A stretch of 64,000 bases of DNA, taken from NCBI RefSeq assembly GCF_029223525.1, contig NZ_JARHTQ010000003.1, positions 1 to 64,000 on the forward strand, read 5' to 3'. The stretch comes from Streptantibioticus ferralitis. GTDB lineage: Bacteria > Actinomycetota > Actinomycetes > Streptomycetales > Streptomycetaceae. The notes under the pieces were generated by a model that saw only the letters and a list, made by a program, of their open reading frames with translations, searched no databases and was not told the DNA's origin. A program made the position numbers and the translations under genes. The first letter of the stretch is position 1; the number at the start of each line of letters is the position of its first letter. Shown in pieces: positions 10,447 to 59,435 of the stretch.

Positions 10447-10586
10447 TGTGTCCGCGGAATCCCCCGTGCTGCGGTACGGCATGAAATCATGGGGTGAGTG
10501 CCAACCGGCGTGTGATGAGGCCTGGTTGGCCCGCCGCGGCTGTGCAGCGCAGTTGCCTGGGGCACTGGCCTGAGGGGGAGGAACCG

Positions 10587-11315
10587 ATGCCGGACAGCTT
10601 CGAGTCGGCGGCCGTCGAAGGGGACGACGGCCGGGGCACGGGCGAGCGGCGTAGCGAGCCCATCCGGGTCCTGGTCGTGGACGATCACGCCTTGTTCCGG
10701 CGCGGTCTGGAGATCGTGCTGGCGCAGGAGGAGGACATCCAGGTCGTCGGCGAGGCCGGGGACGGGGCGGAGGCTGTCGACAAGGCGGCCGATCTGCTGC
10801 CTGACATCGTGCTGATGGATGTGCGGATGCCCAAGCGCGGCGGTATCGAGGCGTGCACGTCCATCAAGGAGGTGGCGCCCAGCGCGAAGATCATCATGCT
10901 GACGATCAGCGATGAGGAGGCCGACCTCTACGAGGCGATCAAGGCTGGGGCCACCGGGTATCTCCTCAAGGAGATCTCCACGGACGAGGTGTCCACCGCG
11001 ATCCGCGCTGTCGCCGACGGCCAGTCGCAGATCAGCCCGTCGATGGCGTCCAAGCTGCTCACCGAGTTCAAGTCGATGATCCAGCGCACCGACGAGCGTC
11101 GCTTCGTGCCCGCACCCCGGCTCACGGACCGGGAGTTGGAGGTCCTCAAGCTGGTCGCGACGGGGATGAACAACCGCGACATCGCCAAGGAGCTCTTCAT
11201 CAGCGAGAACACCGTGAAGAACCATGTGCGCAACATCCTGGAGAAGCTGCAGTTGCACTCCCGGATGGAGGCCGTGGTCTACGCGATGCGGGAGAAGATC
11301 CTGGAGATCCGGTAG
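10587..11315 (+). CDS. orphan NarL/LuxR-type response regulator
   Basis: 242 aa. Receiver domain around 27-145 with DD at 32-33, phosphoacceptor D78 (IVLMDVRMP) and a conserved Lys in YLLKEIS. A LuxR-type HTH occupies about 172-235 (LTDRELEVLKLVATGMNN, ISENTVKNHVRNIL). The ATG at 10587 follows a strong GGGGGAGGAA site; an upstream GTG is possible but unsupported. No histidine kinase is nearby, so its partner is unknown. It corresponds by position to S. coelicolor SCO3008. Confidence 0.93.
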   Translation: MPDSFESAAVEGDDGRGTGERRSEPIRVLVVDDHALFRRGLEIVLAQEEDIQVVGEAGDGAEAVDKAADLLPDIVLMDVRMPKRGGIEACTSIKEVAPSAKIIMLTISDEEADLYEAIKAGATGYLLKEISTDEVSTAIRAVADGQSQISPSMASKLLTEFKSMIQRTDERRFVPAPRLTDRELEVLKLVATGMNNRDIAKELFISENTVKNHVRNILEKLQLHSRMEAVVYAMREKILEIR

Positions 11316-11406: not shown

Positions 11407-12705
11407 TCAGCCCAGTTGTGCGTTCAGCTCGGCCGCCAGCTTCTGGTCGTCCATCCGCTCGACGCGTATGGCATCGCAGCCCACCCACTCGGCCGCTTCC
11501 CGTAGTGCCTGGGCCATCGGGGCCACCGCCCGGGGACCCGCCACCGATACCTGGCGGGCCACGAGGGTGTTCCCTTCGCGCGCCGGGTCCACTCGGCCGG
11601 CCAACTTGCCGCCGGCGAGCAGCGGCATCGCGAAGTAGCCGTGTATGCGCCGGGGTTTGGGGACGTACGCTTCCAGGCGGTGGGTGAAGTCGAAGATCCG
11701 CTGGGTGCGGGCCCGGTCCCAGATCAGGGAGTCGAAGGGGGACAGCAGGGTCGCGCGGTGCCTGCCGCGAGGCTCGGTCGACAGCGCCTCAGGGTCTGCC
11801 CAGGCCTCGCCAGGCGGGGTCTTCTCGTTGGCGCGTGCCGTTCCGGACTTCCTGCCGGGGGTCCTTCCCCATCCCTCGACCTCGACCGGCACCAGGCCCG
11901 ATTCCTCGATCACGGTGTCGACCTGCTCGGCCTTTAGCCGGTGGTAGTCGGCGAGGTCGGCCCGGGTCGCCACGCCCAGCGCCGCGCCCGCCTGGCCGAC
12001 CAGGCGCCGTAGGCACTCGGTGTCGGACAGGTCGTCGTGCAGCAGGGTGCCGGGGACCGCGCGCTCGGCGAGGTCGTACACCCGTTTCCAGCCGCGCCGC
12101 TTCGTACACACCACGTCGCCGGTGTCCAGCAGCCATTCCACGGCGATCTTCGTCTCGGACCAGTCCCACCACGGTCCGCCGTTCTTGGCGCCGCCGAGTT
12201 CGGTCGAGGTCAGTGGCCCGTCTGCCTTCAGCCGGTCCAGGACTGCCGCGCAGGAGCGCTCGGCGTCCTCCAGTACATGCCAGCGGTGGCCCTTCGCCCG
12301 TCGTGCCCGGCGGCGGAAGGCGAAATGCGGCCATTCCTCGATCGGCAGCACGCATGCCGCGTGCGACCAGTATTCGAAGGCGGCCGTGTTCGGCCCCTCC
12401 GTGTCCGCTGCCTCCGGCGATCGGCGGGGCCCCGGCACGTCCGCGCCCCAGTACGCCGACTCCACCGCCGTACGTCCCACGCCGCCCAGCCGGGCGTATG
12501 GGACCAGCTCGTGCGAGCGTGCCAGGACCGAGATGGTGTCCAACTGGACGGCGCCCAGCCGCCGCAGCACGCCGCGTACGCCGCCCCGCCGGTCCGGCGC
12601 GCCGAGCAGCCCCTGGGCGCGCAGCGCTATCCGGCGGGCCTCGTCCGCGGAGAGCGTGGCCTCGGGGTGCCTCCTGCCCGGCTTGGTACGCGTCGGATTC
12701 GTCAT
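11407..12705 (-). CDS. winged-helix DNA glycosylase, YcaQ/AlkZ family (HTH_42)
   Basis: 432 aa. It matches the HTH_42 family whose characterised members, AlkZ of Streptomyces and YcaQ of E. coli, are DNA glycosylases that unhook interstrand crosslinks or remove bulky alkylated bases. The catalytic QxD/QxQ signature is present as VQLD (Q54, D56); the QxD form points to the YcaQ-like subclass rather than an AlkZ toxin self-resistance protein. The start at 12705 is supported by a promoter whose -10 lies 7 nt upstream, so the mRNA should be leaderless. That promoter matches the DNA-damage RecA-NDp consensus. It is convergent with the response regulator gene. Confidence 0.9.
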   Translation of the reverse strand: MTNPTRTKPGRRHPEATLSADEARRIALRAQGLLGAPDRRGGVRGVLRRLGAVQLDTISVLARSHELVPYARLGGVGRTAVESAYWGADVPGPRRSPEAADTEGPNTAAFEYWSHAACVLPIEEWPHFAFRRRARRAKGHRWHVLEDAERSCAAVLDRLKADGPLTSTELGGAKNGGPWWDWSETKIAVEWLLDTGDVVCTKRRGWKRVYDLAERAVPGTLLHDDLSDTECLRRLVGQAGAALGVATRADLADYHRLKAEQVDTVIEESGLVPVEVEGWGRTPGRKSGTARANEKTPPGEAWADPEALSTEPRGRHRATLLSPFDSLIWDRARTQRIFDFTHRLEAYVPKPRRIHGYFAMPLLAGGKLAGRVDPAREGNTLVARQVSVAGPRAVAPMAQALREAAEWVGCDAIRVERMDDQKLAAELNAQLG

Positions 12706-12712
12706 GTGGATC

Positions 12713-12735
12713 AGCGTAGGGGGCACCACTGACAA
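12713..12735 (-). promoter_or_regulatory. RecA-NDp (PafBC-type) DNA-damage promoter of the glycosylase gene
   Basis: On the minus strand the sequence reads TTGTCAGTG-N8-TACGCT, then 7 nt to the ATG. This fits the published RecA-independent damage promoter motif tTGTCRgtg-N8-TAnnnT, recognised with the PafBC activator in mycobacteria, at every defined position. The distance implies a leaderless transcript. Confidence 0.85.
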
Positions 12736-12811
12736 CGCCCCGGGCGCGCTGGCCGCGCGCGGTTTGCTGTCCGCGCCCGGGTTGTCCGCGCCCAGTTGTC
12801 CGCGCCCGGTC

Positions 12812-13402
12812 TCAGGACTGCGGGTAGGGCAGGTACGGCGTCGGCGAGGTCAGTGACCAGTCCGACGGCAGTAGTGAGCCGGTCCAGGCGTCGCGCCGGG
12901 TTCCTTCGTGCACGATGCGGGCGCGCAGGGTGCCCTCCATGCGGAAGCCGGTTTTGAGGGCGACCGCCCGGGACCCGGCGTTGCCCGCCTCGGCGTACCA
13001 CTCCATGCGTTGCACGCCGAGCTCGATGAAGGCCCACTGGCACACCGCGCGCGCTGCTTCCACCGTGTATCCGCGGCCGCGCTGCTCCTTGGCGGTCCAG
13101 TAGCCCAGCTCGGCCTGCCGTTCTTCGGTGTGCAGCATGGCCAGCCGTACCAGGGCCATCGTGCCCACCAGCTGATCTTCGCCGTTGGTGAACACGCCGA
13201 AGCCGTACTGGGTGTCGTCGCGCCACCCGTCCGGGGAGATCTGGCCGATGAACGTCTCCGCGTGTTCGCGCGTGTACGGGGACGGAACGGTGGTCCAGCG
13301 CTGGATCTCCGGGTCCTGGCAGGCGGCGTACACCGCGTGCACGTCCCGCGTCTCCAGGGGGCGCAGGATCAGACGTTCGGTGGTCAGCGTCACGGGTTCC
13401 AT
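12812..13402 (-). CDS. GNAT-family N-acetyltransferase (RimJ/RimL-like)
   Basis: 196 aa. It begins [20 protein letters not shown], the usual opening of RimJ/RimL-type acetyltransferases, and has acetyl-CoA-binding features ([13 protein letters not shown]) and the closing GFRMEGTLR segment. The substrate is unknown; N-terminal protein or small-molecule amine acetylation are both possible. An upstream in-frame start (13453) would add 17 residues but lacks support. A GGAAA about 15 nt upstream is the only ribosome-site-like element. The gene lies between the glycosylase and secA, divergent from secA. Confidence 0.88.
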
Positions 13403-17856: not shown

Positions 17857-17879
17857 TTGTCAGACCGCACCGGTACCGT
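17857..17879 (+). promoter_or_regulatory. RecA-NDp-like promoter of HAD gene
   Basis: TTGTCAGAC-N8-TACCGT, then 7 nt to the ATG. The geometry is the same as at 12713-12735, but two of the three GTG positions differ, so damage control is less certain. The -10 and leaderless placement are good. Confidence 0.5.
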
Positions 17880-17886
17880 CTTGGGC

Positions 17887-18540
17887 ATGACGGCGCATCT
17901 CGTGTGGGACTGGAACGGGACCCTGCTCGACGACATCGAGACGGTGATCGAGGCGACCAACGCCTCGTTCGCCGAGATAGGCCTGCCGTCGATCACCCTG
18001 GAGCGGTATCGGGAGCTGTACTGCGTGCCGGTCCCGCGCTTCTACGAGAGGCTGATCGGGCGACTGCCCACCGAGGACGAGTGGTTGGTGTTGGACGCGG
18101 TGTTCCACCGGCACTACTGGGCGTTGGCCGACCGCTGCACTCTGGCCGCGGGGGCTGTGGAGCTGCTGGCGGAGGGCCGGGTCGCCGGGCGCACCCAGTC
18201 GCTGTGCTCGCTGGCGCCGCATGACCGGCTGGTCCCGCTGGTGCGCGAGCACGGTATCGAACGGCACTTCGTGCGGGTCGACGGCAGGGTGGGCCGGTCC
18301 GACGAGGGCAAGACGGAGCATCTGATACGCCATCTCGCGGCACTCGACGGTGTCGAGCCGCGGCGTACGGTGGTCATCGGGGACGCGGTGGACGATGCCC
18401 GGGCGGCTGTCGCGGCGGGCGCTCACGCCGTGCTGTACACCGGGGGCTCGCACGCCAGGTCCAGCCTGGAGGCCGCCGGGGTGCCGGTGGTGGACAGCCT
18501 GGCGGAGGCGGTGGAGACGGCGGAACGCCTGGTCCGTTAG
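17887..18540 (+). CDS. HAD-superfamily phosphatase-like hydrolase
   Basis: 217 aa. HAD motif I is WDWNGTLLDD, with nucleophile Asp at residue 8; the usual second Asp (general acid/base) is Asn, a variant seen in some phosphoglycolate-phosphatase-like proteins. Motif II lies near SLAPHD, motif III Lys in SDEGKTEHL, and motif IV in VVIGDAVDDARAA. The family has a helical cap between motifs I and II. The substrate is unknown. The ATG at 17887 lies 7 nt after TACCGT, pointing to leaderless translation; an upstream start 10 codons earlier would lie within the promoter. Confidence 0.9.
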   Translation: MTAHLVWDWNGTLLDDIETVIEATNASFAEIGLPSITLERYRELYCVPVPRFYERLIGRLPTEDEWLVLDAVFHRHYWALADRCTLAAGAVELLAEGRVAGRTQSLCSLAPHDRLVPLVREHGIERHFVRVDGRVGRSDEGKTEHLIRHLAALDGVEPRRTVVIGDAVDDARAAVAAGAHAVLYTGGSHARSSLEAAGVPVVDSLAEAVETAERLVR

Positions 18541-57824: not shown

Positions 57825-59435
57825 ATGGATCTCATCCCCGCCCCCACCCACCTCCACGAAGCGTCCGACAGCGCCTCCTTCCCGCTCGACGACTCGACCG
57901 TGATCGACGCGGCCCCCGGCACCGAGGGCGTCGCGCGCTGGCTGCGGTCCGCCGTGGGGGCGGCGACCGGGCTGGCCCTCGCCCCCGGTAGTGACGGGCA
58001 CGTCATCCGGCTGCGTACCGACAGCGGGCTGGCCGCCGAGAGTTACCGGCTGACGGTGAGTTCACCGGCGCTCGACATCACCGGCGGCGACCCGGCTGGG
58101 GTGTTCTGGGGAGCCCAGACCCTGCGCCAACTCCTGGGGCCGCAGGCCTTCCGGCGGGCGCCCGTCGGGGCCGCGACCCTGCGGGTGCCCTGTGTCGCGG
58201 TCGAGGACGCGCCCCGCTTCCGGTGGCGAGGCTTTCTGCTCGATGTCGCGCGGCACTTCATGCCCAAGGACGTGGTCTTCCGCTACATCGATCTGCTCGC
58301 GGCGCACAAACTGAACGTGCTGCACCTGCACTTGACCGACGACCAGGGATGGCGGATCGAGATCAAGCGCTATCCGCGGCTGACCGAGGTCGGTGCATGG
58401 CGCACCCGGACCAAGGTGGGGCTGCGGGAGTCGCCGTTGTGGGACGAGCGGCCACATGGTGGTTACTACACGCAGGACGACATTCGCGAGATCGTCGCGT
58501 ACGCCGCGGAGCGGCATATCAGCGTCGTTCCCGAAATCGACATCCCCGGGCACTCGCAGGCCGCCATCGCCGCGTATCCGGAGCTCGGCAACCGGGACGT
58601 CATCGACACCACCACCCTTCCCGTGCTGACCAGTTGGGGCGTCAATCCCAATGTACTGTCGCCCACTGACACCACCCTGCGGTTCTACGAGGACGTGCTG
58701 ACCGAGGTCCTGGCGCTCTTTCCCGCCACCTTCGTGCACATCGGCGGGGACGAGTGTCCCAAGGAGCAGTGGCGGCGGTCGCAGACCGCGCAGGCCAGGA
58801 TCAAGGAGCTCGGTCTGGCGGACGAGGACGCGCTGCAGAGCTGGTTCATCCGGCATTTCGACCGTTGGCTGACCGACCGCGGCCGCCGCCTCATCGGGTG
58901 GGACGAGATCCTCGAAGGGGGCCTGGCGCCGGGCGCGGCCGTCTCCTCCTGGCGCGGCTACTCGGGTGGGATCGCCGCCGCGCAGGCCGGACATGACGTC
59001 GTGATGTGCCCCGAGCAGCAGGTCTACCTCGACCACCGGCAGCACGACGGCGCCGACGAGCCGGTGCCCATCGGGTACGTACGAACCCTGGAGGACGTCT
59101 ACCGGTTCGAGCCCGTGCCGCCGCAACTCGACGACGAGCAGGCACGGCATGTCATCGGTACCCAGGCGAACATCTGGACGGAGACCCTCGATTCGGTGCG
59201 TGCCGTCGACTATCTGGTCTTTCCGCGGCTCGCGGCCTTCGCCGAGGTGGCCTGGTCCCGGCTGCCCGCTCCCGAACTGCGCGATTACCCGGACTTCGCG
59301 GCCCGAATGGCCGGGCACTACGCGCGACTTGACGCACTGGGGGTCGAATACCGGCCACCGGCCGGGCCGTACCCCTGGCAGCGGCGCCCCGGGGTCATCG
59401 GACGCCCGATCGAAGGGGCGCCCCCAATCGTGTGA
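57825..59435 (+). CDS. beta-N-acetylhexosaminidase, GH20
   Basis: 536 aa. The N-terminal GH20b domain (about 1-135) precedes the catalytic barrel: RFRWRGFLLDVARHF, HLHLTDDQGWRIEIKRYP, EIDIPGHSQAAIAAYPEL, and the catalytic Asp309-Glu310 pair in HIGGDECPKEQW. It removes terminal GlcNAc or GalNAc from chitooligosaccharides or wall fragments. No signal peptide is seen, so it is probably cytoplasmic. The ATG lies 8 nt after CAGACT, a weak -10. No DasR operator is visible upstream. Confidence 0.94.
   Translation: MDLIPAPTHLHEASDSASFPLDDSTVIDAAPGTEGVARWLRSAVGAATGLALAPGSDGHVIRLRTDSGLAAESYRLTVSSPALDITGGDPAGVFWGAQTLRQLLGPQAFRRAPVGAATLRVPCVAVEDAPRFRWRGFLLDVARHFMPKDVVFRYIDLLAAHKLNVLHLHLTDDQGWRIEIKRYPRLTEVGAWRTRTKVGLRESPLWDERPHGGYYTQDDIREIVAYAAERHISVVPEIDIPGHSQAAIAAYPELGNRDVIDTTTLPVLTSWGVNPNVLSPTDTTLRFYEDVLTEVLALFPATFVHIGGDECPKEQWRRSQTAQARIKELGLADEDALQSWFIRHFDRWLTDRGRRLIGWDEILEGGLAPGAAVSSWRGYSGGIAAAQAGHDVVMCPEQQVYLDHRQHDGADEPVPIGYVRTLEDVYRFEPVPPQLDDEQARHVIGTQANIWTETLDSVRAVDYLVFPRLAAFAEVAWSRLPAPELRDYPDFAARMAGHYARLDALGVEYRPPAGPYPWQRRPGVIGRPIEGAPPIV

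Follow-up and report, generated by a model that had tools for sequence, protein, structure and literature searches.

What signal calls an actinomycete cell to make its YcaQ-like DNA glycosylase, an enzyme whose role in these bacteria is described as unsettled (PMC9040887; here, as with the other papers cited by PMC number, we draw on parts of the source)? The window, by which we mean the whole 64-kb stretch of DNA analysed, carries a gene for such an enzyme on its minus strand, and a conserved damage promoter in front of it would tell us when the cell wants the enzyme. An earlier note had proposed just this, placing the gene in the PafBC regulon on the strength of a motif close to its start codon. 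Promoters of this type, known as RecA-NDp, have been described for Streptomyces recA and in mycobacteria (PMC2375139, PMC5087735, PMC8223512). The features on which the argument turns are the following.

12713..12735, minus strand: RecA-NDp/PafBC-type promoter, with the -26 box TTGTCAGTG at 12735-12727, an N8 spacer and the -10 element TACGCT at 12718-12713
12703..12705, minus strand: ATG start codon, predicted to be also the transcription start of a leaderless message
11407..12705, minus strand: YQL-type AlkZ-like DNA glycosylase gene, 432 codons, catalytic motif QLD (PF06224, E 2.1e-57)
12812..13402, minus strand: GNAT acetyltransferase gene, the upstream neighbour, starting at ATG 13402 or GTG 13453 (PF13302, E 6.9e-33)

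Overall, we consider it highly probable that the glycosylase gene is served by a PafBC-dependent promoter with a leaderless start at the ATG, and that the mechanism resembles the mycobacterial one; in one branch of relatives control appears to have been handed over to LexA. The claim of regulon membership is thus supported, by a conserved motif, an enzyme with the QLD signature, an encoded PafBC and a leaderless geometry that is kept.

The arrangement itself is as the earlier note had read it: on the minus strand from 12735 to 12703 the order is TTGTCAGTG, GTGCCCCC, TACGCT, GATCCAC and ATG, which puts the -10 element 7 nt before the start codon. With the consensus tTGTCRgtg-N8-TAnnnT taken as given in that note, the pattern TTGTCRGTGN8TANNNT has a single exact match in the window, and it is the glycosylase promoter; for comparison, the printed form of the S. 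rimosus recA promoter is TTGTCAGTGGC-N6-TAGggT (PMC2375139). At up to two mismatches the window holds 12 matches against 1.46 expected, a number reached in 0 of 100 shuffles, and the relaxed pattern TGTCRG-N10-TANNNT occurs three times (reversed control 0), one of these matches, at 58650-58671, being without a nearby downstream start codon. There is no Shine-Dalgarno-like stretch in the 7 nt between the -10 element and the ATG, and the message should therefore be leaderless, provided that +1 lies at its customary distance from the -10 element. Transcription beginning with the A of the ATG would place TTGTCAGTG at -30 to -22, centred at -26, which is the position of PafB contact reported in PMC11804915. 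As for LexA, the best match upstream of the window gene to the SOS pattern TCGAACNNNNGTTCGA is wrong at five of the 12 fixed bases, and LexA control of this gene is rejected for want of an SOS box.

A rival reading is that the site is a conserved promoter of the housekeeping holoenzyme, giving steady expression of a maintenance enzyme without PafBC, with TTGTCA as an ordinary -35 element. TAnnnT is indeed an ordinary -10 and TTGTCA resembles TTGACA, but only 11 nt lie between TTGTCA and the -10 hexamer, and standard promoters have about 17 nt there. We regard steady expression of this kind as improbable, and further evidence against it accumulates below.

The same window offers a second instance. 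At 17857-17879 on the plus strand, TTGTCAGACCGCACCGGTACCGT lies 7 nt 5' of the ATG of a HAD phosphatase gene (17887-18540), whose product is related to phosphoglycolate phosphatase (TIGR01449, E 3.5e-15, under the model cut-off). Among 30 family orthologues of this gene, out of 41 genomes with a match, TGTCRG-N10-TAnnnT stands in the promoter slot in 15, and five more have TGTCAC or TGTCGT there. From this pattern the HAD phosphatase gene is likely a second regulon member in the window.

The motif matches the RecA-NDp consensus exactly, as the earlier note held, and the 8.8-Mb genome contains 22 exact matches, 11 on each strand, while the reversed pattern has none. Eight of the 22 lie 5' of a gene for a replication or repair protein recognised by Pfam, namely RecA, RuvC, uracil-DNA glycosylase (ung), UvrB, DnaX, a PD-(D/E)XK nuclease, a RecD2-like helicase and the window glycosylase; that recA, ruvC and uvrB have the same motif upstream speaks against a promoter for steady expression. 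The genes at the remaining sites include those for a WGR-domain protein, a SWIM zinc-finger protein and several proteins without a Pfam match. Counting against the regulon reading, several sites precede genes with no plain link to repair (FolB, a transporter component among them), with the start codon more than 100 nt away, and at one of the exact sites, L006, no suitable ORF was found downstream. At no fewer than 10 of the 22 a start codon follows the -10 element by 5-8 nt, counting one ORF of 62 codons. Two further genes, at L003:1530-2162 (plus strand) and L010:804-1493 (minus strand), encode proteins that begin alike and match no Pfam family, each with an exact motif 6-7 nt before its ATG; both proteins are candidates for a part in the damage response.

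The regulator is encoded in the genome. Open reading frames for pafA, pafB and pafC lie side by side on contig C27; PafB matches one PafBC chain of structure 7p5x, the M. smegmatis initiation complex, with an E value of 5.9e-60 and PafC the other with 6.5e-52, and PafC has the HTH_PafC domain. Could some other WYL-domain regulator read the site instead? The genome has 10 WYL-domain matches, and genera that lack the motif at the glycosylase gene still encode HTH_PafC; set against this, the motif has the RecA-NDp form that mycobacterial work links to PafBC, and among the ten WYL matches just one pair is adjacent, PafB/PafC itself beside pafA, so that we think such a regulator very improbable. 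HTH_PafC is found in all 61 genomes of the family sample, those without the motif included, and in 140 of 148 genomes of the class sample; because it is nearly universal, its presence does not predict the motif.

For PafBC, then, we infer a mechanism by analogy with mycobacteria, where single-stranded DNA activates the regulator, the PafB HTH sits at the -26 motif and the PafC HTH at sigma domain 4 (PMC11804915). Consider a cell whose DNA has been damaged. Single-stranded DNA would bind the WYL domains of PafBC; PafB would read the -26 box TTGTCAGTG while PafC makes contact with the housekeeping sigma factor at its domain 4; RNA polymerase would then use the TAnnnT -10 element, starting the glycosylase transcript, independently of LexA, at the A of the ATG; and the leaderless mRNA would be translated from its 5' end.

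In S. venezuelae, an initial search suggested that the PafBC motif of M. smegmatis is not conserved, and a PafBC response in Streptomyces is said to remain to be shown (both PMC9380542). Over the 61 family genomes, a sample that does not include S. venezuelae, exact motifs number 991 in all (median 16 per genome) where the reversed pattern has 7, and most of the family shows an excess of the motif.

The earlier note had named loss of the motif in close orthologues as a result that would count against it. Such loss was looked for, and the motif is kept in 77 of the 80 loci that were the best by protein similarity among 515 (the rest of this paragraph concerns those best 80) and, in its TGTCRG-N10-TAnnnT form, in 51 of 60 orthologues of the family sample; the named loci, the class sample and the family sample overlap in some genomes, so these counts are not independent. 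Near the gene starts the best match has 0, 1, 2, 4 or 6 mismatches in 40, 33, 4, 1 and 2 loci, whereas the reversed pattern has 3, 4, 5 or 6 in 1, 16, 49 and 14 and never fewer than 3. The 77 loci at two mismatches or fewer define a footprint outside which fall only L060 and L099, the two loci with 6 mismatches, where the contig stops at the gene, and L062, with 4 mismatches, where by eye TGTC and TAGGGT are still in register. Within the footprint TGTC, G7, T18, A19 and T23 are invariant; the GTG that follows TTGTCA is kept at 100, 96 and 99%, which a steady promoter with TTGTCA as its -35 element would not lead one to expect, and the first T of the box at only 53%. The 77 loci, 1.07 Mb with both strands counted, contain no extra site with one mismatch or fewer.

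Conservation at the protein level would be another way to keep such a motif, with an in-frame TTG or GTG of the motif serving as the start codon, and reading from TTG 12735 does give an open frame (442 aa). The ATG follows the -10 element by 6, 7 or 8 nt in 19, 56 and 2 of the 77 loci, however, so that the frame is not kept, and most spacer columns vary, although C17 stands at 94%. We find a coding origin of the conservation hardly credible, and it is rejected on the shifting distance to the ATG. A promoter with a leaderless start remains the preferred reading.

The best matches to a query favour its near relatives, a bias in choice that the even family sample avoids. Of 61 genomes drawn evenly from the family, 60 have the YQL gene, and their upstream DNA (50 + 9 genomes fetched, plus the window) shows TGTCRG-N10-TAnnnT 5-10 nt 5' of the start codon in the 51 just mentioned. 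Among the others, G157 has TGTCCG, six have an SOS-type palindrome, and G155 and G181 have neither; two rows carry the label loose, G157 for its TGTCCG and G148 because what matched there was the SOS palindrome.

How far back does the arrangement go? In other families, the orthologous or related sequences that we compared number 90, from 86 genomes in 29 families; they come from the first 100 places in list order, down to E 1.1e-28, after setting aside matches that start far inside the protein and five partial matches near the start (G056, G072, G020, G139, G075), together with everything ranked lower. Among the matches listed, the strict form is present in 16 and a loose one (GTC preceded by any base, the A of the -10 element by C or T, a spacer of 9-11) in 17, making 33 of 90, and 57 have neither. 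TGTCGG is the most frequent hexamer ten bases before TAnnnT in the slot of the 90 listed sequences (16 cases, against three each for TGTCGT and CGTCGG), and yet 57 of the 90 are without the form; the pairing of promoter and gene therefore seems to be older than the family and far from universal. Most of the other-family sequences are about 40% identical to the query, and they may be paralogues. Four genomes of family f19 have two copies of the gene, with the form at one copy and absent at the other. In several families the hexamer that follows TGTCGG or CGTCGG has the form CA-N3-T (CAGCAT, for example), with a GTG 6-8 nt further on (L123, L124, L126, L147, L156, L173 and L185, and further L194, L195, L197, L198, L199, L201 and L203); this hexamer is possibly a variant -10 element.

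The exceptions within the family are the part of this analysis likeliest to surprise a specialist. In all three genomes of genus g83 and in three of the four of g86, the TGTC box is absent and CGAAC-N4-GTTC directly abuts the TAnnnT -10 element, with the start codon 7 nt further on, in the same leaderless layout. The palindrome occurs in only these six among 230 upstream sequences, and three control patterns in none; SOS boxes of S. venezuelae are similar, approximately TCGAAC, four bases and about GTTC (PMC9380542). An SOS-type palindrome in place of the box in a sister branch is hard to square with a steadily expressed promoter. In a tree of 60 rows without an outgroup root, built from these six proteins, the window protein and the first 53 usable of the best 80 of the 515 loci, the six form one side of a fully supported branch. 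Because the TGTC form occurs in other families too, a single replacement of a PafBC-type by a LexA-type promoter is the simplest reading, and the glycosylase gene has apparently been handed over from PafBC to LexA in this branch. On balance we lean, by a small margin, towards the fuller history in which an old leaderless damage gene of actinomycetes passed from PafBC to LexA by a swap of the -26 box, the -10 element and the leaderless start being kept. If true, the replacement is a natural experiment in the change of regulator of a damage gene.

The change may be part of a wider hand-over. The seven g83 and g86 genomes (G148, G164, G174, G151, G166, G176 and G181) have 2-6 exact PafBC motifs each against the family median of 16, and 37-77 copies of TCGAAC-N4-GTTC against 3-23 in 13 comparison genomes; the reversed palindrome occurs 2-7 times in the seven and 1-7 times in the 13. 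Caution is called for by G156, G160 and G172, which keep the PafBC-type glycosylase promoter and yet have just 3-4 exact motifs per genome. Absence of PafC as the cause of the motif's loss in g83 and g86 is rejected, since HTH_PafC is found in 61 of 61 family genomes. The composite CGAAC-N4-GTTC-TAnnnT has 14 sites in 20 genomes, and six are the glycosylase promoters; the other eight are discounted as promoters because they represent one repeated sequence, four of them overlapping a tRNA-Gly gene on the opposite strand and four not (ARAGORN). An alignment of ten upstream regions yielded nothing further.

What would the cell gain by making this enzyme under stress? A solved relative of the window glycosylase is 9zd6 (E 6.9e-47), and its catalytic motif, QLD, is of the Q-aliphatic-D kind, where AZL proteins have (Q/H)-aliphatic-Q. 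The QxD motif asserted in the earlier note thus stands, and its assignment to the YcaQ/AlkZ type stands by half: QLD is the form attributed to the YcaQ-like (YQL) subfamily (PMC9040887), and the protein is not of the AlkZ self-resistance type. Two actinobacterial YQL proteins hydrolyse N7-methylguanine and unhook nitrogen-mustard crosslinks (PMC9040887), and by analogy with its subfamily the window protein, which is chromosomally encoded, is predicted to excise N7-alkylguanine and also to unhook interstrand crosslinks. The same genome has three further full-length PF06224 members and one weak partial match (L027). The catalytic forms of the three are QAQ, QAQ and HATD, which are those given for AZL and AZL2; the HATD paralogue, L025 at G000:C66:323016-324011, has the form given for the AZL2 clade. 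A promoter motif common to all full-length AlkZ-like paralogues is rejected: from -300 to +60 the best matches of the three have 4, 6 and 4 mismatches, and the relaxed motif has no match in that interval.

Around the YQL gene, the GNAT acetyltransferase was assigned by Pfam, and a response regulator ORF (10494-11315) was recognised by reading the ORF list. Between the GNAT stop and the promoter (12740-12812) we see by eye recurring units that resemble GCGCGGACA, together with an inverted repeat rich in GC, perhaps the terminator of the GNAT gene.

Taken together, the promoter layout, the conservation across the family and the LexA-type site in one branch suggest, as far as sequence can speak to regulation, that DNA damage controls the gene. 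In the literature covered, mainly the main texts of openly available papers, no YcaQ/AlkZ gene is named as controlled by PafBC. The idea is all the same less new than the earlier note had it, since a comparative study of 2008 had already predicted 67 S. coelicolor genes with motifs like the recA promoter, DNA glycosylases such as ung among them (PMC2375139). We would therefore describe the YQL gene as an apparently new member, with strong comparative support, of a regulon already known. With its compact and strongly conserved promoter, the gene would make a clean test of the PafBC response in Streptomyces.

Set beside known systems, the window promoter shares with the RecA-NDp/PafBC promoters of mycobacteria and of Streptomyces recA its box, spacing, TAnnnT element, centre near -26 and association with repair genes, and differs in having the start codon fixed 6-8 nt after the -10 element. 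The S. coelicolor set of 67 genes obtained with SIGffRid from the recA motif is alike in motif, enrichment for repair and presence of glycosylases (PMC2375139). The macrodomain gene SCO6735 of S. coelicolor likewise came to notice by its RecA-NDp promoter, which several species keep; it encodes another enzyme and is reported to be UV-inducible (PMC5087735), whereas the window gene is known from sequence, has been followed through far more species and has, in one branch, an SOS-type replacement. With the YQL glycosylases, E. coli YcaQ and its actinobacterial orthologues, the window protein shares PF06224 and the Q-aliphatic-D motif, and these genes have a conserved neighbourhood with an N-acetyltransferase and a two-component regulator, outside antibiotic gene clusters (PMC9040887). 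The parts of that paper drawn on here say nothing about the promoter or the regulator of YQL genes, and to this the window gene adds a predicted regulator, PafBC.
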